From the NCBI GenBank assembly GCA_019689555.1, contig JADGHE010000009.1, forward strand, positions 1 to 64,000: a stretch of 64,000 bases of DNA, read 5' to 3'. The notes beneath the pieces were generated by a model. That model saw only the letters and a program-made list of their open reading frames with translations. It was not told where the DNA came from and did not search any database. The DNA is from Variibacter sp. (GTDB lineage Bacteria > Pseudomonadota > Alphaproteobacteria > Rhizobiales > Xanthobacteraceae). The translations under genes were made by a program, and so were the position numbers. Of the stretch, positions 64 to 12,327 are shown piece after piece; the stretch's first letter is position 1; each line of letters opens with the position of its first letter.

Positions 64-1761
64 TCAGAACAAGCCGACGATCCGGCCCTCGGCATCCACG
101 TCGATGGAATCGGCGGCGGGAACTTTCGGCAGCCCCGGCATGGTCATGATCTCGCCGCAGATGGCGACGACGAATTCGGCCCCCGCGGAGAGCCGCACTT
201 CCCGGATCGGAATGATGTGGTCGACCGGCGCGCCCTTGAGGTCGGGATCGGTCGAAAAGCTGTACTGCGTCTTGGCGATGCAGATGGGCAGCTTTCCGTA
301 GCCCATGTCTTCCCACGCCTTGAGCTGGTCGCGGATCGACTTGTCGGCGGCGACGCCGCGTGCGCGATAGATCTCGCGCGCGATGGTCTCGATCTTCTCG
401 AACAGCGGCATGTCGTCGGGGTAGAGAAACTTGAGCTTGCTCTTGCCGCTGTCGCAGATCTTCACCACGGCACGGGCGACATCGGCCGCGCCTGCGCCGC
501 CCATGGCCCAGTGATCGGCCATGAACGCCTCGACGCCGAGCTTCCGGCAGGACTCCTGCACGAGCTTGATTTCGGTCTCCGTGTCCGAGGAAAAGCGATT
601 GATCGAGACCACGGCCTCAAGGCCGAACTTCCGCACGTTCTCGACATGGCGCTGCAGATTCGCCATGCCGGCCTCGAGCGCCTTGAGGTTCTCGGCCTTG
701 AGGTCTTCGCGCTTGACGCCGCCGTGCATCTTGAGCGCGCGAATGGTGGCGACGAGCACGACGCAGTCGGGCGCGAGCCCGGTCTTGCGGCACTTGATGT
801 TGATGAATTTCTCGGCACCGAGATCGGCGCCGAAGCCCGCCTCGGTGACCACGTAATCGGCGAGCTTGAGCGCGGTGGTGGTCGCGACAACCGAGTTGCA
901 GCCGTGGGCGATGTTGGCGAAGGGGCCGCCGTGGACGAAGGCGGGCGTGCCCTCGAGCGTCTGCACGAGATTGGGCGCGAGCGCGTCCTTGAGCAGCGCC
1001 GTCATGGCGCCGTGCGCCTTGAGATCGCGGGCGCGGACCGGCTTCCGGTCGCGCGTATAGGCGACGATGACGTTGCCGAGCCGCTCCTTGAGATCGTCGA
1101 GATCCCGGGCGAGGCAGAAGATCGCCATCACCTCGGAAGCGACCGTGATGTCGAACCCCGCCTCGCGCGGAAAGCCGTTGGCGACGCCGCCGAGCGAGCA
1201 GACGATCTGGCGCAAGGCGCGGTCGTTCATGTCCATGACGCGCCGCCAGGCGATGCGGCGGCTGTCGATGCCGAGCGCATTGCCCCAGTAGATGTGATTG
1301 TCGATCAGCGCCGCGAGCAGGTTGTGCGCCGCGGTGATGGCGTGGAAGTCGCCGGTGAAATGGAGATTGATGTCCTCCATCGGCACGACCTGCGCATAGC
1401 CGCCGCCCGCCGCGCCGCCCTTCATCCCGAAGGAGGGCCCGAGCGACGGCTCGCGCAGGCAGAGCATCGCCTTCTTGCCGATGTGGTTCAGCGCGTCGGT
1501 GAGGCCGACCGTCGTCGTCGTCTTGCCCTCGCCCGCAGGGGTGGGCGAAATCGCCGAGACGAGGATGAGCTTGCCGTTCGGCCGGTCCTTGAGCGTCTTG
1601 ATGTAGTCCATCGAGATCTTGGCCTTGTAGTGGCCGTAGGGCTCGAGGTTCTCGGGCGCGATGCCGAGCTTCTCGCGCGCGATCTCGACGATCGGCCGCT
1701 TCGCCGCGGCCTGGGAGATCTCGATGTCGGATTTCGGGTTCAGATGCTGTGAGGCGGGCAT
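64..1761 (-). CDS. fhs: formate--tetrahydrofolate ligase
   Basis: Catalyses ATP-dependent formylation of tetrahydrofolate by formate to 10-formyl-THF in the cytosol. The 565-residue product has the family's usual length (about 555-560 residues). The signature [14 protein letters not shown] (P-loop) lies near residue 75 and the glycine-rich [17 protein letters not shown] segment around 114-130. The stop is 64 bases from the window start, so the gene appears complete. It is the last gene of a leftward series (lyase, formyl-CoA transferase, formyltransferase, fhs), 143 bp behind the formyltransferase. Here it would capture formate released by the formyl-CoA transferase or produced by formyl-CoA hydrolysis. 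Identification is very secure; co-transcription with the upstream genes is inferred from orientation only. Confidence 0.97.
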
Positions 1762-1904
1762 GGGGCGCGGTCCACTGTGCTGGGGCTAGGGTCCAAATTG
1801 CGAAAACGGGAACTCGTCTTTCGCCGTCGCGCCGGCGCCCGCGGATCATGGCTTGCAGGTCCGCGCGGCGCGCGCACGACCGAGCGAGGGCGTCGGGCGG
1901 GCCT

Positions 1905-2831
1905 TCAGGTGAAGCGCGCGCCCGGCGCGAGCTGCGCGCTCGCCGCCCACTCGCCGGCGGGGATCTTCGGGCCGTCCGCCTGCACGCGCGTGACCTTGAA
2001 GCGGCCGTCGGCGCACACGACGGTGAAGCCGTCCGCCTCCACGGCGACGACCTCTCCCATCTTACCGCCGATGCCCTTCGGGTCCTTCGCGGGCAGCGGG
2101 GTTGCGTCGAAGATCCGCAGCCGCAGGCCGTCGAGGTTCGACCAGGCGCCCGGCGACGGATTGCAGCCGCGGATCAGCCGGTCGATCTGCTGCCACGGTT
2201 TGCCCCAGTCGATGTGGGCGTTCTCGGGACCGCAGCGGCCTTCGTAGGTGGCCTTGGATTCGTCCTGCTTGATGCGCGGCGCCTTGCCCGCCTTCACGAG
2301 GTCCACGGCTTCGAGCATCGCCTCGACGCCCATGGGGAAGAGGCGGTCGAAATAGACGGAGCCGACTGTGTCTTTCGGGCCGATCGGCGTCCTCTTCTGC
2401 AGCAGGACGTCGCCCGTATCGAGCCCGTTGTCGGGCCAGAAGATCGACAGCCCGGTCTCGGTCTCGCCCTTGATGATCGCCCAGTTGATCGCGCTCGGGC
2501 CCCGGTAGGCGGGGAGCAGGGACGGGTGATACTGGATCGAGCCGTGGGTCGGAATGTTGAGAAACTCCTCCGGCACGAACAGCGTGACGAAGGCCATGAC
2601 CTGTAGGTCGGGCTTCAGCGCGCGAAACTCCTCCCACACCTCGGGATTGCGGTAGGAGGTCGGCTGATAGACCGGCAAGCCTGCGGCGAGCGCCGCCTCC
2701 TTGAGCGCGTCGGGCTTCTGCCCGGGCTTCTCGGGCGCGACGTAAACCGCCACGACGTTTTCGCCGCGCTGGAGCAGCGCCTCCAGCACGGCTTTGCCGA
2801 ACGCCTGCTGCCCGTGGACCACGATACGCAT
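1905..2831 (-). CDS. stand-alone 10-formyl-THF hydrolase/formyltransferase (ALDH1L1 N-domain type)
   Basis: A 308-residue formyltransferase-fold protein. An N-terminal formyl_transf_N domain (about 1-200) is followed by a C-terminal formyl_transf_C domain (about 205-300). The segment SIQYHPSLLPAYRGPSAINW near residue 98, and WPDNGLDTGDVLLQKR about 35 residues later, closely match the hydrolase domain of animal 10-formyl-THF dehydrogenase (ALDH1L1). They match methionyl-tRNA formyltransferase less well: the Asn of the NxH motif is Gln here, while the catalytic His and Asp are kept. Family members hydrolyse 10-formyl-THF or move formyl groups between folate and another acceptor. It lies between a formyl-CoA transferase and formate-THF ligase, so a role in handling formyl groups from formyl-CoA is likely. 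The exact reaction is not shown by the sequence. It is not the house-keeping fmt by context: there is no def neighbour. Confidence 0.85.
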   Translation of the reverse strand: MRIVVHGQQAFGKAVLEALLQRGENVVAVYVAPEKPGQKPDALKEAALAAGLPVYQPTSYRNPEVWEEFRALKPDLQVMAFVTLFVPEEFLNIPTHGSIQYHPSLLPAYRGPSAINWAIIKGETETGLSIFWPDNGLDTGDVLLQKRTPIGPKDTVGSVYFDRLFPMGVEAMLEAVDLVKAGKAPRIKQDESKATYEGRCGPENAHIDWGKPWQQIDRLIRGCNPSPGAWSNLDGLRLRIFDATPLPAKDPKGIGGKMGEVVAVEADGFTVVCADGRFKVTRVQADGPKIPAGEWAASAQLAPGARFT

Positions 2832-2932
2832 TCAGTATCCTCCCAACCCGCCTGGGGCGCCCGCGGGCCGCGGGCCTCCGCCAGGCATCGACGTCATGTG
2901 TTGCGTCCCCGCCGGCGCGGGGACGGTTTCTG

Positions 2933-4504
2933 CTACGCCGCAGCGGCCGCGGGCTTCTCCGGCGCCGTCACGGCACCCGAGCCCATGATCTCGCTGATCT
3001 CCTTCGGCGAGTAGCCGAGGAGCTTCAAAATCTCCTCCGTGTGCTCGCCGAGCAGAGGCGCGCGCTTCACTTCGGTGATCGAGTCCGACATCTTCACCGG
3101 ATTGCCGACCGTCAGGTACTTGCCGCGCACCGGATGGTCGACCTCGACCACCGTGCCGGTCGCCCGCAGCGACGGCTCCTCGGCGATCTCCTTCATCGAC
3201 AGGATCGGCCCCACGGGGATGTCGTATTTGTTGCAGATCTCCATGACCTCGAACTTCGTCTTGGTCATGGTCCACTGCTCGATCGTGTCGAAGATCTTGC
3301 GCAGGCGCGGCAGCCGAGCGTTCGGCGTCGCGTAGTCGGGATCGGTCTTCCACTCCGGCTTGCCGATCAGGTCGCAGATCGCCCCCCACACCGGCGCCTG
3401 TGTGATGAAGTAGACATAGGCGTTGGGATCGGTCTCCCAACCCTTGCACTTGAGGATCCATCCCGGCTGCCCGCCGCCCGAGTCGTTGCCGGCGCGCGGC
3501 ACGGCGTCGCCGAACGGGATGCCCTCGCCGTACTGGCTGTACTCCTTGAGCGGGCCGTGCTTGAGGCGCTGCTGGTCGCGCAGCTTGACACGGCAGAGAT
3601 TGAGCACGCCGTCCTGCATGGCGGCGAGCACCTTCTGGCCGCGGCCGGTGCGCATGCGCTGATAGAGCGCGCAGACGATGCCGAAGGCGAGATGCAGGCC
3701 GGTGCCGGAATCGCCGATCTGCGCCCCCGTCACCAGCGGCGGCCCGTCACGAAAGCCCGTGGTGGAGGCGGCGCCGCCGGCGCACTGGGCGATGTTCTCG
3801 TAGACCTTGCAGTCCTCGTAGGGACCCGGACCGAAGCCCTTCACCGACGCCACGATCATGCGCGGGTTGAGCTTATGGATGTGCTCCCAGGTGAAGCCCA
3901 TGCGGTCGAGCGTGCCGGGGGCGAAATTCTCCACGAGCACGTCACAGTACTTGATCAGGCGCTCCAGGATCTCCTTGCCCTTCGGATGTTTGGAATCGAC
4001 GGTGATCGACCGCTTGTTGCCGTTGAGCATCGTGAAGTAGAGGCTGTCGGCGTTCGGCACGTCGCGCAGCTGGACGCGCGTGATGTCGCCAGTGCCCGGC
4101 CGCTCCACCTTGATGACGTCGGCGCCCATATAGGCCAGAAGCTGCGTGCAGGTCGGGCCCGACTGCACGTGCGTGAAATCGAGGACGCGCACGCCCTCGA
4201 GCGCCTTGCCGGCCTGGCCCCAGGGCTTCGTCGACGGCTTGGGGAGCCTGATCGTCGCCGCCCGCGCGGGGGACTTTGCGGTGCGCCGGGCGGCCGCTTT
4301 GGCGGTGGCGCGCTTCGCCGCGGCCGCAGGCCGCGCAGCCGTGCGCTTCGTCGTGGCGGCGGCGCGCTTGGCGGCGGGCGTGGCCGCGCGCCGTTCCGCC
4401 GGCCTCTTCGCGGCAACCGCGGCGGATGTCCGCTTGGGCTTCGTCAGCGCCTTTTTTCGCGAGGCCGCAGCGGCCGTCTTCCTCGGTTTCTTGCGCGTGG
4501 CCAT
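2933..4504 (-). CDS. frc: formyl-CoA:carboxylate CoA-transferase with H1-like basic N-terminal tail
   Basis: Class III CoA-transferase (CaiB/BaiF family) that moves CoA from formyl-CoA to a carboxylate, releasing formate. From about residue 100 it aligns from memory with Oxalobacter Frc: [20 protein letters not shown] with the conserved Arg, the catalytic Asp in AMQDGVLNL, the SGGGQPGW loop and [11 protein letters not shown] near the end. The position of Oxalobacter Trp48 is Gln, as in E. coli YfdW. Residues 2-85 form a Lys/Arg/Ala/Pro/Thr tail with almost no acidic residues, absent from ordinary Frc (about 425-430 residues); this product is 523. The ATG at 4504 is chosen because AGGAGA lies 7 bases upstream, and no ATG, GTG or TTG in the tail's distal part would give a normal-length enzyme. 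A low-complexity Ala/Pro run ends the protein. The neighbouring lyase and folate genes support formyl-CoA metabolism. Enzyme family very secure, acid substrate open. Confidence 0.9.
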
Positions 4505-4691
4505 TGAGCTTTCTCCTGAAATCTCCGTTCCGTGTCTCGCGCGCAGCGTATCTTCCGCGAGGCGAAAGGGTGCGCTGCAGGATTTCCGTCTCGAGCGATC
4601 GCCGTTTGCAGGAACCGGAGCCCGACGCGAAGCGAAGGCCGCGCGTGCCGCGTCGCGCGCGGCACGGCCGTTTCCGCCCCGGGCCGTCGCC

Positions 4692-6449
4692 TCACTTGTA
4701 CATGGTCTGGTTCTTGGTGCCGGGCGCATACTCGTTGGGATCGACCCAGATGTTGACGACGGCCGACTTGCCGGTCTTCGCGACCATCTCGCGCGCCTTC
4801 CTCAGCGCCGGCGCGATCTCGGATGCGGCGCGCACCTCCGTTCCCCAGCCGCCCCACATCTTCGGGAAGTGGGAGAACTCCATGTCGCCGAGCTTGTTGC
4901 CGACATTGCCGCGCTGCGGACCGTACTTGGCGATCTGGCCGTAGCGGATCTGGTTCATCGCCGAGTTGTTGCCGATCACGGCGATGTAGGGGGCGCCGAA
5001 GCGGTCGGCGGTCTCCATGTCGAAGGCCGTCATCCCGAACGATCCGTCGCCGTAGTAGCAGAGCACCTCCTTGTTCGGATGCGCGAGCTTCGCGGCGAGG
5101 GCGAAGCCCGTGCCGACGCCGAGCGAGCCGAGCGCGCCCGGGTCCATCCAATGCCCCGGCTTGCGCGGGCGCACGGCCTGCGCCGAGATCGTCACGACGT
5201 CCCCGCCGTCGCCGATGTAGATCGTGTCCTCGGTGAGGAACTCGTTGATCTCGTAGGCGACGCGATAGGGGTGGATCGGCGTCTGCTCGGACTTGAACAT
5301 CGGCATCAGCTTCTCGAGCGCCGCCTCTTCGGCCGCCTGCAACTCCTTCATCCACTGCCGGCGCGCCTGCCGCTTGTCGTTCTTGATCCGGCTGTTGGCG
5401 GCGTTGAGCACCGCCTCAAGCACGGCGCCGGGATGCCCGACGATGCCGAGCGTGATGTCGCGGTTCTTGCCGACCGTGCGGTAGTCCATATCGATCTGCA
5501 CGAGCGTCGGCACGTTGATGCGCTTGCCGTAGCCCATGCGGAAGTCGAACGGCGTGCCGACGATGACGATGACGTCGGCCTTCCCGAAGGCGAGCGAGCG
5601 GGTGCGGTCGAAATGGTGCGGGTCGCCGGGCGGCAGCAGGCCGCGGCTTGCGCCGTTGAAATAGCCCGGAATGTCGAGGCCGCGCAGCAGCGCGATCGCC
5701 TCCTCGTGTCCGCGCGCGGTCCATACCTGCTGGCCGAACAGAATGGCGGGCCGCTCGGAGTTCACCAGAATGTCGGCGAGCCGCTCGATGTCGCGCGGAT
5801 CGCCGAGGGCGCGGACCGATGCGCGGTAGTGCCCCGGCTTCGGCACGACCGCCTTGGAGACGTCGATCTCGCGGTCGAGCACGTCGCGCGGGATTTCGAG
5901 ATAGCTCGGGCCGTAGGCGCCCGCGAAACATTCCCGCGCCGCCATGGCGATCATGTCGGCGACGCGCTCGGTCGACATCACCGTGGACGCGAATTTGGTG
6001 ATCGGCTTCATCATGTCGACGTGCGGAAGGTCCTGCAGGCCGCCCATCTTCCACTGGGTGAGGGCGCTTTGGCCACCGATGTGCAGAACCGGGCTCTCCG
6101 AGCGGAAAGCCGTGGCGATGCCGGTGACCGCGTTGGTGCAGCCGGGGCCGGCGGTGGTGACGACGCAGCCGAGTTTGCCGGTCTGGCGCGCATAGCCGTC
6201 GGCGGCGTGCGCCGCGGTCTGCTCGTGGCGCACGTCGACGATGCGGATGCCCTCGTCCAGGCAGCCGTCGTAGATGTCGATGATGTGGCCGCCGCACAGC
6301 GTGAAGATTGTGTCGACGCCTTCCGCCTTGAGCGCCTTGGCGACCAGGTGGCCGCCCGAAATGACGTTGGGGTCGGTGCTCTTGCGCTTCAGCGTGTCTT
6401 CAGCGGTCGTCGGTTCCGGCTTCTGTGCCTTCAATGTTGCTTCAGCCAT
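4692..6449 (-). CDS. thiamine-diphosphate enzyme, 2-hydroxyacyl-CoA lyase type
   Basis: 585-residue ThDP enzyme of the acetolactate synthase/oxalyl-CoA decarboxylase superfamily. The N-terminal PYR domain carries the activating Glu in [16 protein letters not shown] (about residue 75); a central domain follows. The C-terminal PP domain has the metal/ThDP motif GDGSFGM...NN near 450-475. Annotation pipelines may call it acetolactate synthase or oxalyl-CoA decarboxylase. The Tyr-Glu pair of Oxalobacter Oxc (GDYEEMDQ) is GGLQDLPH here, and the Oxc NNGGIYKG segment is [12 protein letters not shown]. By eye it is closer to ILVBL/HACL2 and the actinobacterial 2-hydroxyacyl-CoA lyases, which split 2-hydroxyacyl-CoA into formyl-CoA and an aldehyde or ketone. 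The adjacent formyl-CoA transferase supports a formyl-CoA product. ATG at 6449 follows GGAGGA by 6 bases. Superfamily certain; lyase versus decarboxylase is inference. Confidence 0.8.
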
Positions 6450-6777
6450 GGAAGTCCTCCGGGGCGTTCATTGGGAAGCGACGCCGTCGCGCGTCACCGC
6501 CTGCGTGAAGTGGATCTCGAATTGCGCCGCGACCGGCCCCGCCGACTGGGTCCGGGCGCGACATGCACGGGCATCGACTGGTCGGGACGCTCCGCCCGGC
6601 GCGGCCGCGCCACGGCCCGGCCGGATCGGCGCCGGCGCGAACATGGCAGCCGCGGTCCGATCGGGCAGCGCGCGCCGGCCGGCGACATGCCCGTCCGTCG
6701 GGGTCCGCTCGCCGTCCGTCCGGCCCGTGGCGAACGTCCGGCGCGGCGGAATGGGCTCGAGAACCGAGGGCTGCATC
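6450..6777. other. intergenic gap between lyase and GntR genes
   Basis: 328 bp of very GC-rich sequence between two leftward genes. It holds the lyase Shine-Dalgarno sequence at its left edge and presumably a promoter or operator for the lyase-frc genes, but I see no convincing -35/-10 pair or dyad. The open frames across it have no recognisable protein character. Confidence 0.6.
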
Positions 6778-7512
6778 TCAGTCCAGATAATCGGCGTAGC
6801 GCCGCACGTGCTCGGCGAGGCCGAGCGCATGGTCGCGCACGAGAGCCTCGGCGCGCTCCGTGTCGCGCAGCTCGAGCGCCTCGATGATGTTCATGTGGTC
6901 GCGAATCGAGCGGTCCGCGCGATCCTGCTCGCCGATGGTCTTGCGGCGGATCATGCGCATATGGGTGAAGAGGTTCTCGGCGAGATTCACGAGCACGCGA
7001 TTATGGCTCATGCCGATGATCGCCTGGTGGAACTGGATGTTCACCTCGGAGTACTCGTCGAGCTTTGCGTGCAGCTTGCCGTCCTCGAAGGTCGTGAACA
7101 TCGCCCGCAAGGTCGCGATCTCCGCGTCGGAGGCGTTCTGCGTGATCAGCCGCGCGGCCATGCTCTCCAGGGCGGCCCAGGCGGTGATGAGCTCGATGAC
7201 CTCGGCCTTGGTCTTGCGGACCACGTAGACGCCGCGCCGCGGCACGGAGCGCACGAAGCCTTCGCGCTCGAGCTGCGCCATCGCCTCGCGCACCGGCGTG
7301 CGGCTGATGCCGAGGTCGCTCGCGAGCTGGCGCTCGTCGAGCCGCACCTCGGAGGGCTGGTCGTACACGTTGAGGGAGACGATGACGTCCTTCAGCGCCG
7401 CATAGGCGCGGTCCGCGAAGGTCGAGGTGTCTTCGAGCGGCGCTAGGGCCACACGGGGCGGCGCTGCCGGCTCGCGGCCTGCGCGCTGAAGCGTGACGGT
7501 CCGATCCTGCAT
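6778..7512 (-). CDS. GntR-family transcriptional regulator, FCD (FadR) subfamily
   Basis: Predicted DNA-binding repressor or activator whose C-terminal domain senses an organic acid or acyl-CoA. The winged helix-turn-helix occupies about residues 35-100 (LGISRTPVREAMAQLEREGFV is the recognition segment). The FCD all-helical ligand domain follows, with the typical metal-site pattern: Asp in LDEYSEVNIQFHQAI, then His in MSHNR and RDHMNI. I chose the ATG at 7512 (244 residues), the usual family length; an upstream start at 7674 would add 54 residues of non-family sequence. It lies directly upstream of the lyase-frc-formyltransferase-fhs genes and downstream of tctCBA, all leftward, so it probably regulates one or both sets in response to the imported acid. 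Confidence 0.92.
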   Translation of the reverse strand: MQDRTVTLQRAGREPAAPPRVALAPLEDTSTFADRAYAALKDVIVSLNVYDQPSEVRLDERQLASDLGISRTPVREAMAQLEREGFVRSVPRRGVYVVRKTKAEVIELITAWAALESMAARLITQNASDAEIATLRAMFTTFEDGKLHAKLDEYSEVNIQFHQAIIGMSHNRVLVNLAENLFTHMRMIRRKTIGEQDRADRSIRDHMNIIEALELRDTERAEALVRDHALGLAEHVRRYADYLD

Positions 7513-7711: not shown

Positions 7712-9214
7712 TCAGGCGGCGGCGGGGCGAAAGACGCGGCTCCACCCGGACTGGATCAGCGGCCACAGCAGCACGATCAACCCGAGCGCCATGATTGTGC
7801 CGACAAGGCCGTTCGACCAGAAGATGCTGAGACTGCCCTGGGAGGTGAGCAGCGACTGCCGGAACGCCTCCTCGGCCTTGTCGCCCAGCACGATGGCCAG
7901 GACCATGGGCGCCATGGGGTAGTTGCACTTCTTCATCAGATAGCCGAGCACCCCGAACACCAGCATCAGCATCACGTCGAAGGTCGAGTTGTGCACCGTG
8001 TAGGCGCCGATGGCACAGAACACGAGAATGATCGGCGCGATGATGCTGAACGGAATGCGCAGGATGGCCGCGAACAGCGGCACGCAGGTGAGCACGACCA
8101 GGAGCCCCGCCACATTGCCGAGATACATGCTGGCGATCAGGCCCCAGACGAACTCCTTCTGCTCGACGAACAACATGGGGCCCGGCTGCAGACCCCAGAT
8201 CAGAAGGCCGCCGAGCAGCACGGCCGCGGTCGGCGAGCCGGGCACGCCGAGCGACAGCATGGGTAGCAGGGCGGAGGTGCCGGCCGCGTGGGCGGCCGTC
8301 TCGGGCGCGACCACGCCCTCGATCTCGCCGGTGCCGAACTTGTGGCCGGTCTTCGACATGCGCTTGGCAAGCCCGTAGCTCATGAAGGAGGCCGGCGTGG
8401 CGCCCGCGGGGGTGACGCCCATCCAGCAGCCGATGATGCAGGACCGCAGCGAGGTGATCCAGTAGCGCGGCAGCTCGGCCCAGGTCTCGAGCACCACGCG
8501 CGGACTGATGACCGCGGTGCGGCCCTTGAAGCTCAGACCCTCCTCCATGGTCAGCAGGATCTCGCCGATGCCGAAGAGGCCGATGACGGCGATCAGGAAG
8601 TCGAAGCCCGTGAGCAGGTACTCCGAGCCGAAGGTCAGCCGCAGTTGGCCGGTCATCTGGTCGAGCCCCACGGCGGCGAGCGCGAAACCGATCATCATTG
8701 CGGCGACCGTCTTGAAGGCCGGCTCCTTGCTCATGCCGATGAAGCTGCAGAAGGCGAGAAAGTACACGCCGAATTTTTCCGCCGGCCCGAAGCGCAGAGC
8801 GAAGGCCGCCACAAGTGGCGCCACCAGCGTGATCATGATCACGGCGAACAGCGCGCCGACGAAGGAGGAGGTGAAGGCGGCGGTCAGCGCCTCGCCCGCG
8901 CGGCCTTTCTGCGCCATCGGGTGGCCGTCGAAGGTGGTCGCGACAGACCACGGCTCGCCCGGAATGTTGAACAGAATCGAGGTGATGGCGCCGCCGAACA
9001 AGGCTCCCCAGTAGATGCAGGAGAGCATGATGATGGCCGACGTCGGCGACATCGAGAATGTGAGCGGCAGCAGGATGGCGACGCCGTTCGCGCCCCCGAG
9101 CCCGGGCAGCACCCCGATGATGACTCCGAGCAGAATGCCCACGAGCATCAGCATCAAGTTGAACGGCTCGATGACGACGGCGAAGCCGTGAAAAAGATTG
9201 GCGATCTCTTCCAT
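7712..9214 (-). CDS. tctA: tripartite tricarboxylate transporter, large membrane subunit TctA
   Basis: 500-residue integral membrane protein, the main permease of a TTT system, with about 12 hydrophobic segments. Recognisable TctA features include the N-terminal LLGVIIGVLPGLGGANGVAILLPLTF stretch (residues about 28-55) and the conserved repeat-like GVPGSPTAAVLLGGLLIWGLQPGP around 325. Length is standard for the family (about 500). It is the last gene of tctC-tctB-tctA, 51 bp after tctB. Together with the periplasmic binding protein it would import a carboxylic acid using an ion gradient. The neighbouring CoA-transferase/lyase genes suggest the imported acid is their substrate, which is inference. 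Confidence 0.96.
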   Translation of the reverse strand: MEEIANLFHGFAVVIEPFNLMLMLVGILLGVIIGVLPGLGGANGVAILLPLTFSMSPTSAIIMLSCIYWGALFGGAITSILFNIPGEPWSVATTFDGHPMAQKGRAGEALTAAFTSSFVGALFAVIMITLVAPLVAAFALRFGPAEKFGVYFLAFCSFIGMSKEPAFKTVAAMMIGFALAAVGLDQMTGQLRLTFGSEYLLTGFDFLIAVIGLFGIGEILLTMEEGLSFKGRTAVISPRVVLETWAELPRYWITSLRSCIIGCWMGVTPAGATPASFMSYGLAKRMSKTGHKFGTGEIEGVVAPETAAHAAGTSALLPMLSLGVPGSPTAAVLLGGLLIWGLQPGPMLFVEQKEFVWGLIASMYLGNVAGLLVVLTCVPLFAAILRIPFSIIAPIILVFCAIGAYTVHNSTFDVMLMLVFGVLGYLMKKCNYPMAPMVLAIVLGDKAEEAFRQSLLTSQGSLSIFWSNGLVGTIMALGLIVLLWPLIQSGWSRVFRPAAA

Positions 9215-9265: not shown

Positions 9266-9772
9266 TCAGAACCCCAGAAAGTACTCGATCGGCCCCTTCG
9301 GCAAGGGCACGAGGAACCAACGCTCGAACACGACGAAGGTCACGAGCGGCACTCCGATCGCGATGAGGAGCACCCGGGACCAGTTGTAGCGTCCGTGCCA
9401 TTTCATGAAGGCGCCGATCAGGAGCGCCGAGGCGGTGTAGATCCCGATCCAGGGCACCAGGGCGACATAAACCGCGGTCGGAAGCACGACGGAACTCACG
9501 CGACCGAGCTGGTCCCAGGTCGCGAAGCGCCGCTCATCGGCCCGGTCTCTCCAAGCCTGCACGAGATTGACCAGGCTCGCACCGAGAATGAACAGTCCGA
9601 CGTAGAACGGAATGAAGCCCGCCCGTGGCCCGTCCTCGGCCCAGTCGCGGCCGACCCGCATGCTGCCGATGATGACGATTAGGGCGAACACGGCCGTGAA
9701 GACGGCCATGCCGACCTCCACCCGCCGGTGGGAAGGGCCGGCCGCCGTCATCCCTTCGATCTCCTTGCGCAT
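9266..9772 (-). CDS. tctB: tripartite tricarboxylate transporter, small membrane subunit TctB
   Basis: 168-residue membrane protein with four predicted transmembrane segments (about residues 20-40, 55-75, 95-115 and 125-160), the TctB pattern. The C-terminal half, ending in a hydrophobic VVFERWFLVPLPKG motif, is typical of this subunit. The ATG at 9772 is preceded by AGGGAG at 8 bases; an ATG 57 bases further upstream has no ribosome-binding site. It sits between tctC (75 bp upstream) and tctA (51 bp downstream). TctB is the poorly conserved partner of TctA, so the call rests on topology and on gene order. Confidence 0.9.
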   Translation of the reverse strand: MRKEIEGMTAAGPSHRRVEVGMAVFTAVFALIVIIGSMRVGRDWAEDGPRAGFIPFYVGLFILGASLVNLVQAWRDRADERRFATWDQLGRVSSVVLPTAVYVALVPWIGIYTASALLIGAFMKWHGRYNWSRVLLIAIGVPLVTFVVFERWFLVPLPKGPIEYFLGF

Positions 9773-9847
9773 TGGAATGGCTCCCTCTGCGGCCGGCCGG
9801 TTACCCCCACCGAAGCCGGCCACATCCACTGGCTGTTGCTCGGTCTC

Positions 9848-10870
9848 TCACTTCTTCTCGAGGAAGCCCGCCGCCTTCATGAGCTCTTCGTGGCGCTTCT
9901 CCTCCTTGGCGATCCAGTCCTTGAATTGATCGCCCGACATGAAGGTCGTGTTGAAGGCGCCGCTCCTCATGAAATCCTTCCACTCCGGCGTCTCGCGCAC
10001 CTTCTTGAACAGGTCCACGTAGTACTGAACCTGATCGTTGCTCGCGCCGCCGGGCATGAAGACGCCGCGCAGCATGAGGTACTCGACGTTGAGCCCCTGC
10101 GCCTTGCAGGCCGGCACGTCGGCCCAAGTCTGGCCGTCCGGCGTGATCTTCTCGTGATACTCGACGGGCTTCGAGTCGAAGACGCACAACGGCCGCAGCT
10201 TGCCGCCGCGCCAATGGGACACGGCCTCGATCGGATTGTTCACGGTCGCGTCCACGTGATTGCCGACGAGCTGGACCGCGACCGCGCCGCCGCCGCCCTG
10301 CGGGATGTAGATGAATTTGGCGCCGGTCGCCTTCTGGATCGCTTCGGTGATGATCTGATCTTCCTGCTTGGAGCCGGTGCCCGCGATCTTGAAGCTGCCG
10401 TTCGCCTGCTTGGCGGCCTCGATGAAGTCTTTCGCCGTCTTGTAGGGCTTCTCGGCGTTTACCCAGAGGATGAACTCGTCAAGCGCCAGCATCGCGACAG
10501 GGGTGAGGTCCTTCCAGTTGAAGGGAATGCCGGTCGCGAGCGGCGTCGTGAACAGGTTCGACAGCGTGATGATGATCTTCTGAGGATTGCCCTTCGAATT
10601 CTTGACGTCGAGAAAGCCCTCGCCGCCGGCCCCGCCCGCCTTGTTGATCACCACCATCGGCTGCTTCATCAGGTTGTGCTTGCTGATGATGCCCTGGATC
10701 GTGCGCGCCATCTGGTCGGCGCCGCCGCCGGTGCCGGCGGGTACGATGAACTCGACCGGCCGGGTGGGCTCCCACGCGGCCTGCGCGGCGCTCGGCATGC
10801 TCGCCATAAAGGCGGCCGCAAGGCCGAGCGCCGCCACTCTTGAGCACGAACGGAGATCGAGATGCGTCAC
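9848..10870 (-). CDS. tctC: tripartite tricarboxylate transporter substrate-binding protein TctC/Bug
   Basis: 340-residue periplasmic solute receptor. An N-terminal signal peptide ends at about residue 31 (ASMPSAAQAA). The Bug-fold hallmark WEPTRPVEFIVPAGTGGGADQMAR follows. The protein starts at a GTG at 10870, with AGGGAGGA 6 bases upstream. First gene of tctC-tctB-tctA. Bug proteins bind a range of carboxylates and related molecules; the ligand cannot be read from the sequence. The coupling to a formyl-CoA transferase module suggests a short carboxylic or hydroxy acid. Confidence 0.94.
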   Translation of the reverse strand: MTHLDLRSCSRVAALGLAAAFMASMPSAAQAAWEPTRPVEFIVPAGTGGGADQMARTIQGIISKHNLMKQPMVVINKAGGAGGEGFLDVKNSKGNPQKIIITLSNLFTTPLATGIPFNWKDLTPVAMLALDEFILWVNAEKPYKTAKDFIEAAKQANGSFKIAGTGSKQEDQIITEAIQKATGAKFIYIPQGGGGAVAVQLVGNHVDATVNNPIEAVSHWRGGKLRPLCVFDSKPVEYHEKITPDGQTWADVPACKAQGLNVEYLMLRGVFMPGGASNDQVQYYVDLFKKVRETPEWKDFMRSGAFNTTFMSGDQFKDWIAKEEKRHEELMKAAGFLEKK

Positions 10871-11178: not shown

Positions 11179-12327
11179 TCAAGCGCGGTTTCTGCCGAGA
11201 AGGTGGTCGGAAATGATCCGCATCTGAATTTCCGACGTGCCTTCGAAGATCTTGGTCAGCCGGGCGTCGCGCCAGTAACGTTCGACCGCGTGAAGCGTCG
11301 TGTATCCGGCGCCGCCGTGGATCTGCAGCGCTTCGCTGGTGACGCGCTCGGCCATCTCGGTCGCCTGAAGCTTGGCCATCGCGGCCTCCTTGTCGCACCG
11401 CTCGCCGGTGTCGATCAGGCGGCAGACGAAGTAGAGGAGCTGGCGCGCCGCCTCGATCTCCGTCGCCATGCGGGCAAGCTTGAAGCGGATGGCCTGAAAC
11501 TCGCTGAGGGAGTGGCCGAACTGAACCCGTTCGCGGGCATAGGCCGTGGCGTCCTCGAGCGCGCCGCGCGCCAGGCCGATGGCGCGGGCGGCCGTGTGGG
11601 CGCGCGCGACCTCGAGCCCGCTGGTCGCCACGTAGAACCCCTTGCCCTCCTCGCCCACCATGTTGGCGGCCGGAACCCGACAGCCGTCGAAGGCGAGCTC
11701 CCAGGTCTTCCATCCGAAATAGCCGATCTTCGGAATCGGGGCGCCGCTCACCCCGGGCGGCAGGCTGCCGCGCGGCTTGTCGACGATGAAGGCGGAGATG
11801 CCGCGATGGCGCTGGGCGGACGGATCGGTGCGCGCGAGCACGAGAATGTAGTCGGCGCCGTCCGCGAAGGTGCACCAGTATTTGTTGCCGGTGATGACCC
11901 ATTCGTCGCCCTCGCGGCGCGCGCGGCACTGGATGTTGGAGAGGTCCGAGCCCGCATTGGGCTCCGAAAAGGCGAAGGCGCCGAGCGCTTCGCCCCGCGC
12001 CATGCGCGGCAGATAGCGCTGCCGCTGCTCCGGCGACAGGGCCTGCATGCCGATCATGGGGCGGATGATCGAGCCCATGCTCATCCAGGCGCGGCTCAGC
12101 TCCTCGGTGACGAGGCAGTATTCCAGGCAGCCGAGGCCGAGGCCGCCATATTCCTCCGGAATGAGAAGTCCGAAGAAGCCGAGCTCGGCGGCGCGCTGAA
12201 TGAGCGAGAGCGGAATGTCCTTGCGCTCGGGATCAAGCGCGTTCGCCGCCGGGAGCACCTCCCGCATCGCGAAATCGCGCGCCGTTTGCTGAATGAGTTT
12301 CTGCTCTTCGGTCAGGACGGCGCTCAT
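11179..12327 (-). CDS. acyl-CoA dehydrogenase
   Basis: FAD-dependent acyl-CoA alpha,beta-dehydrogenase of 382 residues, the standard length. The N-terminal helical domain (1-120) is followed by the beta domain with the FAD motif AFAFSEPNAGSDLSNIQ (about 115-131) and WCTF. The C-terminal domain contains VQFGHSLSEFQAIRFKLA, QIHGGAGYTT and the family ending DARLTKIFEGTSEIQ, with the catalytic Glu of short/medium-chain enzymes in EGTSE. It lies upstream of tctC in the same direction, separated by 308 bp. It might oxidise the acyl-CoA made by the downstream CoA-transferase, but chain length and pathway cannot be decided. Confidence 0.95.
   Translation of the reverse strand: MSAVLTEEQKLIQQTARDFAMREVLPAANALDPERKDIPLSLIQRAAELGFFGLLIPEEYGGLGLGCLEYCLVTEELSRAWMSMGSIIRPMIGMQALSPEQRQRYLPRMARGEALGAFAFSEPNAGSDLSNIQCRARREGDEWVITGNKYWCTFADGADYILVLARTDPSAQRHRGISAFIVDKPRGSLPPGVSGAPIPKIGYFGWKTWELAFDGCRVPAANMVGEEGKGFYVATSGLEVARAHTAARAIGLARGALEDATAYARERVQFGHSLSEFQAIRFKLARMATEIEAARQLLYFVCRLIDTGERCDKEAAMAKLQATEMAERVTSEALQIHGGAGYTTLHAVERYWRDARLTKIFEGTSEIQMRIISDHLLGRNRA

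Follow-up and report, generated by a model that had tools for sequence, protein, structure and literature searches.

A probable oxalate operon in Variibacter sp. with a putative decarboxylase from a separate branch of the thiamine diphosphate superfamily

Results

Gene content of the cluster

The first 64,000 nucleotides of contig JADGHE010000009.1 of Variibacter sp. (GenBank assembly GCA_019689555.1, forward strand), called the window in the following, open with a cluster of leftward genes. These encode a regulator, a thiamine diphosphate (ThDP) enzyme, a formyl-CoA:oxalate CoA-transferase (Frc), a stand-alone formyltransferase-type protein (FT) and a formate-tetrahydrofolate ligase (Fhs). 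An earlier note on this DNA had listed these five genes between positions 64 and 7512, with the regulator as FadR-type; all of them were found again by open frames and profile matches (Table 1). The boundary at 7512 did not hold, since the three genes of a Tct transporter continue on the same strand to position 10870. We propose that the cluster serves oxalate catabolism and that its ThDP enzyme is a non-orthologous oxalyl-CoA decarboxylase; for the two claims together we estimate a probability of about 0.8.

Table 1. Genes of the cluster in the window.
Feature	Position	Strand	Evidence and remarks
Fhs, formate-tetrahydrofolate ligase, 565 aa	64..1761	-	NF010030 944.4 bits (cut-off 652); PF01268 919.6 (cut-off 27)
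FT, stand-alone ALDH1L1/FDH hydrolase-domain relative, 308 aa	1905..2831	-	Formyl_trans_N and Formyl_trans_C
Frc, formyl-CoA:oxalate CoA-transferase	about 2933..4504	-	TIGR03253 728.1 bits (cut-off 504.2), match from residue 101
ThDP enzyme, 585 aa, uncharacterised family	4692..6449	-	all three Pfam TPP domains
GntR regulator with FCD domain	6778..~7512	-	PF00392 and PF07729; start inferred, ATG near 7512
TctA, large membrane subunit of tripartite tricarboxylate-type transporter	7712..9214	-	PF01970 502 bits; probable oxalate importer
TctB, small membrane subunit	9266..9829	-	PF07331; start uncertain
TctC, substrate-binding protein	9848..10870	-	PF03401

Conservation of the cluster

A scan of species genomes with the ThDP protein returned at least 590 relatives, of which the top 80, at 77-90% identity, were analysed. 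Frc was present in 76 of these loci, GntR in 62, FT in 22, TctA in 17 and Fhs in 13, where any match within a locus was counted, partial ones included. All of Frc, FT and Fhs accompany the ThDP gene in 11 of the 80. Filomicrobium insigne (L035) carries the arrangement ThDP-Frc-FT-Fhs. The cluster is thus conserved, a point on which the earlier note had made its proposal depend, and it occurs in records of alpha-, beta- and gammaproteobacteria. A much similar set of genes surrounds a 'thiamine pyrophosphate-binding protein' in two annotated plasmid copies, one from Phyllobacterium, which includes a PanE-type gene, and one from Streptomyces, which does not; two further plasmid records carry no annotation at the ThDP gene.

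Genes for OxlT, a PanE-type reductase, an ADP-forming acyl-CoA ligase and SucCD-like proteins recur in many ThDP loci. In one of them (L045) the oxalate/formate antiporter OxlT lies by the ThDP gene and scores 554 bits (cut-off 335). The ADP-forming ligase (L045:13038-15230 and its relatives) stands beside the ThDP and Frc genes in 30 of 63 full ThDP loci and is a candidate for an oxalate- or formate-CoA ligase. In another locus, the stretch between the ThDP and Frc genes (L192:6763-10179) holds genes which most resemble the delta, alpha and beta subunits of oxalate oxidoreductase, with 93, 384 and 343 bits, each below its cut-off.

Family assignment of the ThDP enzyme

The earlier note had called the ThDP enzyme a lyase/decarboxylase. 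The name as it stands is not supported, as the protein fails the models for both activities: it reaches 225.4 bits with TIGR03254 for oxalyl-CoA decarboxylase (OXC; cut-off 739.4) and 351.5 bits with NF058623 for 2-hydroxyacyl-CoA lyase (cut-off 600). It also stays below the cut-off of PRK05858 (435 bits, cut-off 587), and it fails every one of the best 25 of the 51 NCBIfam models that it matched.

The predicted structure has a pLDDT of 79.9 and is poor at residues 128-149. A fold search with this model placed the 2-hydroxyacyl-CoA lyase AcHACL first (31% identity, TM ~0.83), and the nearest solved relatives are AcHACL entries; E. coli OXC was found at 22% identity. The ThDP-activating glutamate is conserved: E76 corresponds to OXC E56 and is kept in 104/104 rows of the family alignment (the rows here and for FT are non-identical strings, some of which are one gene cut differently). 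Gln139 aligns with AcHACL Q128, and the position of the AcHACL acid/base catalyst E493 is occupied by Ile501. The active-site residues of OXC are given as Y120, E121, Y483 and S553, with R555 as a weaker case, in PMC10192776. At the catalytic positions the textbook OXC rows have Y, E, Y and S in 13/13 cases. A tree of the superfamily separates OXC from the ThDP family, each as a clade of its own; the tree is used for this statement alone because long branches meet in it.

Exchange of the decarboxylase in the same operon slot

We scanned 385 genomes of the class for FT (E <=1e-65) and the ThDP family (E <=1e-150). FT was present in 34 and the ThDP family in 16 genomes; 13 had both, against 1.4 expected. 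In eight of the 13, FT and the ThDP gene are no more than 10 kb apart (G316 and G394 are counted among the eight on positions alone), and in five FT lies elsewhere; in G164, for example, it is found apart from the ThDP gene and beside Fhs.

We then examined the surroundings of FT in every one of the 21 genomes that have FT but no ThDP-family gene. Nine of them (L166-L170, L172, L183, L185, L186) show the order textbook OXC, Frc, FT. These nine loci include GntR in eight, Fhs in seven and TctA in five cases, with several contigs ending early; a tenth contig (L171) has Fhs, FT and Frc running into the contig end. The shared Frc, FT, Fhs and TctA have 70-86% identity to their window counterparts in six of the nine loci and 43-75% in the other three (L183, L185, L186). 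L167 is an example: identity to the window is 75-84% for each of its Fhs, FT, Frc, GntR and TctA, and the decarboxylase alone is of the other family. In the FT tree the window protein groups with neighbors of both decarboxylase types, and the type switches at least four times; in the Fhs tree it switches at least three times. Both are quick trees with SH-aLRT support only and many weak branches. Textbook OXC over the cut-off was found in just two of 20 genomes with the ThDP family; the 18 without it include species of Paraburkholderia, Cupriavidus, Thiomonas and Labrys. We regard this recurrent exchange of decarboxylases at one position of the operon as the decisive evidence for what would be a role in oxalate metabolism.

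An oxc mutant of Burkholderia phytofirmans PsJN (PMC3886118) was considered as direct evidence on the ThDP family and rejected, since the experiment concerns textbook OXC. The two oxc primers of that paper match the two ends of textbook OXC in L098 with three and two mismatches, whereas in the eight ThDP-family loci compared the forward one is mismatched at 5-7 positions.

The same alternation is seen within Cupriavidus. OXC scores above the cut-off in 27 of 40 genomes, and the ThDP family is present in 10; no genome combines the two, and three lack both. The p value for the absence of overlap is 3.4e-7, assuming independent genomes and uncorrected for kinship. C. metallidurans CH34 carries the ThDP family and appears to be without OXC over the cut-off. 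We compared eight OXC loci from Cupriavidus with five ThDP loci (four from Cupriavidus, one from Burkholderiaceae). Frc-type genes are present in 13/13. FAH occurs in 8/8 OXC loci versus 4/5 ThDP loci, PanE2 in 5/8 versus 4/5, OxlT in 7/8 versus 2/5 and SucCD in 3/8 versus 5/5. In C. necator, deletion of frc-oxc abolishes growth on oxalate, and apbA2, a relative of PanE2, lies nearby (PMC7486775); the text available from this paper does not state whether the oxc in question is the textbook form.

The formyltransferase-type protein

The closest solved relatives of FT are ALDH1L1 hydrolase domains. Its model (pLDDT 94.4) has 4qpd, an FDH hydrolase domain, as best fold match. The catalytic residues His102, Ser104 and Asp138 are kept in 50/50 rows, and Gln100 takes the place of FDH Ile104 in 47/50. 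The protein consists of the Formyl_trans_N and Formyl_trans_C domains alone, without the carrier and ALDH domains of ALDH1L1. An assignment as methionyl-tRNA formyltransferase was rejected (TIGR00460 170.5 bits, cut-off 201.5).

PurU is the usual 10-formyl-tetrahydrofolate (10-formyl-THF) hydrolase. None of the 34 FT genomes has PurU over the cut-off of TIGR00655 (285.95), with which the listed FT genes themselves score about 20-25 bits, as compared with 88/385 of all genomes scanned (p 9e-5, uncorrected for kinship). Three ThDP genomes are without FT, and two of these (G117, G334) have PurU. Because PurU is missing from the FT genomes, FT itself probably removes the formyl group from 10-formyl-THF.

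In four loci (L179-L182) FT occurs without oxalate genes and adjoins a 111-residue protein which, judged by eye, resembles pterin carbinolamine dehydratase.

Two operon styles

Neighbors were tallied in the 68 of 102 loci in which the decarboxylase is flanked by 4.5 kb or more on each side; 63 of these are ThDP loci, in which Frc is undercounted (54/63) because overlapping matches were dropped. FT and TctA occur together in 16 loci, FT only in four, TctA only in three and neither in 45. The corresponding numbers are 1, 19, 29 and 19 for FT and the acyl-CoA ligase, 3, 17, 38 and 10 for FT and OxlT, and 1, 18, 40 and 9 for TctA and OxlT. As a control for kinship we used seven independent pairs on the ThDP tree. 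In these, FT and the ligase changed the same way in no pair and in opposite ways in 2-4 (p 0.125-0.5); FT and TctA changed the same way in 3-6 and oppositely in 0-2 (p 0.031-1 over pairings); TctA and OxlT changed oppositely in at most two. The antiporter style would export formate and the Tct style would keep it in the cell, which would account for the folate and formate dehydrogenase genes of the latter. A Tct transporter for oxalate was not named in the open-licence PubMed Central literature, among the matches listed.

Ends of the operon and further observations

The window opens with the first base of its contig (C86), so that any genes past Fhs are cut off. Formate dehydrogenase genes come after Fhs in four relatives (L167, L168, L193, L195), and another contig of the same genome (C94) carries a 78% copy of the formate dehydrogenase subunit seen there. 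Fhs is the single match to PF01268 in a profile search of the whole genome.

Past TctC lies a gene for an acyl-CoA dehydrogenase (11179-12327, minus strand). It has relatives in 0/80 loci (E 1e-10), was rejected as a member of the operon and is probably unrelated.

In the Frc of the window the catalytic domain is preceded by about 100 residues that form a histone-H1-like tail with many Lys, Arg and Ala (window 4205-4504, minus strand). Similar tails of 54-99 residues are also found in the Frc of the related operons L009, L011, L013, L014, L166-L170 and L193, and partly in L172; most of the 94 Frc proteins compared are without one.

Discussion

The gene content and its exchange pattern suggest the following pathway. 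Oxalate would be taken up by TctABC. Frc, in accordance with its family, would convert formyl-CoA and oxalate to oxalyl-CoA and formate, and the ThDP enzyme would decarboxylate oxalyl-CoA to formyl-CoA, the job of textbook OXC done from another branch of the superfamily; this step is suggested by the slot replacement. The formate would be retained in the cell and either oxidised or put on folate by Fhs. FT would remove the formyl group of 10-formyl-THF, with a thiol as the probable acceptor; if this thiol is CoA, as is possible, formyl-CoA would be returned to Frc. The earlier note had an acid activated with CoA by Frc and turned into formyl-CoA by the ThDP enzyme, with folate enzymes as part of the operon, and we judge this outline to be right. 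The acid, left open there, can now be narrowed to oxalate because of the repeated swaps with textbook OXC and the OxlT, PanE2 and Frc neighbors.

Several observations weigh against this reading. The closest solved relative of the ThDP enzyme is a lyase, and the active-site residues of OXC are not kept in its family: Y120, E121 and Y483 correspond to L138, Q139 and I501 in 104/104 rows, R555 to T582 in 103/104 and S553 to position 580, which is N in the window and N in 74, A in 28, R in one and a gap in one of the rows. Searches of the open-licence PubMed Central literature turned up no assay of a protein from this family. The two decarboxylases occur together in the two of 20 genomes mentioned above, where OXC sits with Frc in a separate cluster (L215, L216). 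The surroundings of the two are also not identical, as the acyl-CoA ligase accompanies OXC in 0/8 and the ThDP gene in 5/5 of the compared loci. In L081, L082 and L087 the ThDP gene is followed by FT, with Tct genes and no Frc within the stretch (in L082 the contig end leaves just the start of FT). Neither decarboxylase is found in the stretch around FT in 11/34 FT genomes, all of them without the ThDP family, and in five further ones FT lies apart from the ThDP gene; FT is therefore not tied to oxalate, and an oxalate-only role was rejected. Finally, the contrasts between FT and the ligase and between Tct and OxlT largely follow kinship, since the independent pairs are mostly not significant.

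The acceptor of the formyl group is the part of the scheme on which we are most cautious. CoA as acceptor, which would provide Frc with its substrate formyl-CoA, is a tentative choice to which we give somewhat less than even odds. More doubtful by a shade is the complete version, in which FT would be a 10-formyl-THF:CoA formyltransferase. Together with Fhs it would turn formate into formyl-CoA at the cost of one ATP and so prime and replenish the cycle of Frc and decarboxylase from the operon's own waste product; in reverse it would load folate from formyl-CoA free of ATP. A reaction of 10-formyl-THF with CoA to formyl-CoA has been proposed, without direct proof, for HypX (PMC6802093).

A serious competitor, which we hold to be just as plausible as CoA as the acceptor, also sees an oxalate operon here but takes FT for a PurU-like hydrolase with no link to CoA; it would free THF when Fhs and much formate shift the folate pool toward its formyl form. 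The mutual exclusion of FT and PurU, the presence of PurU in two of three ThDP genomes without FT, and the FT genes with neither decarboxylase nearby are all in its favor. On the other hand, the N-terminal domain of ALDH1L1 requires high concentrations of thiols for hydrolase catalysis in vitro, and in the whole protein the formyl group is carried by a phosphopantetheine arm (PMC8748788), whereas FT has no carrier domain. Furthermore, FT directly follows the ThDP gene in the three loci without Frc, and it occurs together with the acyl-CoA ligase in just one of 68 full loci, although much of this is kinship.

It is improbable that the ThDP enzyme is instead a 2-hydroxyacyl-CoA lyase and that the cluster breaks down a 2-hydroxyacid like glycolate, lactate or 2-hydroxyisobutyrate, with formyl-CoA and a carbonyl compound as products. 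The closest structures and the best CoA-lyase model are indeed those of AcHACL, and Gln139 matches Q128. The catalytic E493 is replaced by Ile501, yet human HACL2 likewise has Ile at this position according to PMC13327070. What favors oxalate over a 2-hydroxyacid is the Frc above the oxalate-Frc cut-off, the OxlT and PanE2 neighbors and the repeated swaps with textbook OXC. A chance neighborhood or an assembly error, which might be suspected because the window begins at a contig end, is negligible given a cluster conserved across three classes of proteobacteria, with all four enzymes together in 11/80 loci and in further genomes from independent assemblies.

If the reading is correct, there would be a second, independently derived oxalyl-CoA decarboxylase, and FT, should CoA be its acceptor, would add a formyl loop between CoA and folate. 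Among the matches listed from the open-licence PubMed Central literature we found no description of the ThDP family as an oxalyl-CoA decarboxylase, of an oxalate operon with FT and Fhs, or of a CoA-folate formyl loop in oxalate metabolism. Surveys of oxalate degraders rely on textbook oxc and would miss genomes that use the unnamed 'thiamine pyrophosphate-binding protein'. The priming and removal of formyl-CoA in oxalotrophs is an old gap, and FT is a candidate enzyme for the traffic between formyl-CoA and folate. PMC10192776 describes both oxalate CoA-transferase (EC 2.8.3.2) and formyl-CoA hydrolase (EC 3.1.2.10) as enzymes without a known gene.

The system can be compared with several known ones. 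The ThDP enzyme shares with OXC (TIGR03254; PDB 2c31, 2q27) the superfamily, the activating glutamate, the operon slot and the Frc partner; it differs in its low identity to the E. coli protein (22%) and in the absence of Y120, E121, Y483, S553 and R555. With AcHACL it shares the closest solved fold and the equivalent of Gln128, but not that of E493; its score is 351 of the 600 bits needed and its gene partners are different. FT resembles the hydrolase domain of ALDH1L1/FDH and PurU in its fold, in the catalytic His, Ser and Asp of FDH and in the probable deformylation of 10-formyl-THF, whereas it has no carrier or dehydrogenase domain, has Gln100 for Ile104 and stays below the PurU cut-off. 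The N-terminal domain of HypX is similar in fold class and proposed chemistry (PMC6802093), but the fold match is at 21-22% identity and FT is without the CoA-binding C-domain. As a whole, the cluster corresponds to type II oxalate degradation, the frc-oxc system with OxlT of Oxalobacter, E. coli and C. necator, in the Frc family, in the proposed exchange between formyl-CoA and oxalyl-CoA and in the putative decarboxylase beside Frc; it departs from it in a decarboxylase of another ThDP branch, in TctABC in place of OxlT and in the presence of FT and Fhs in the operon.

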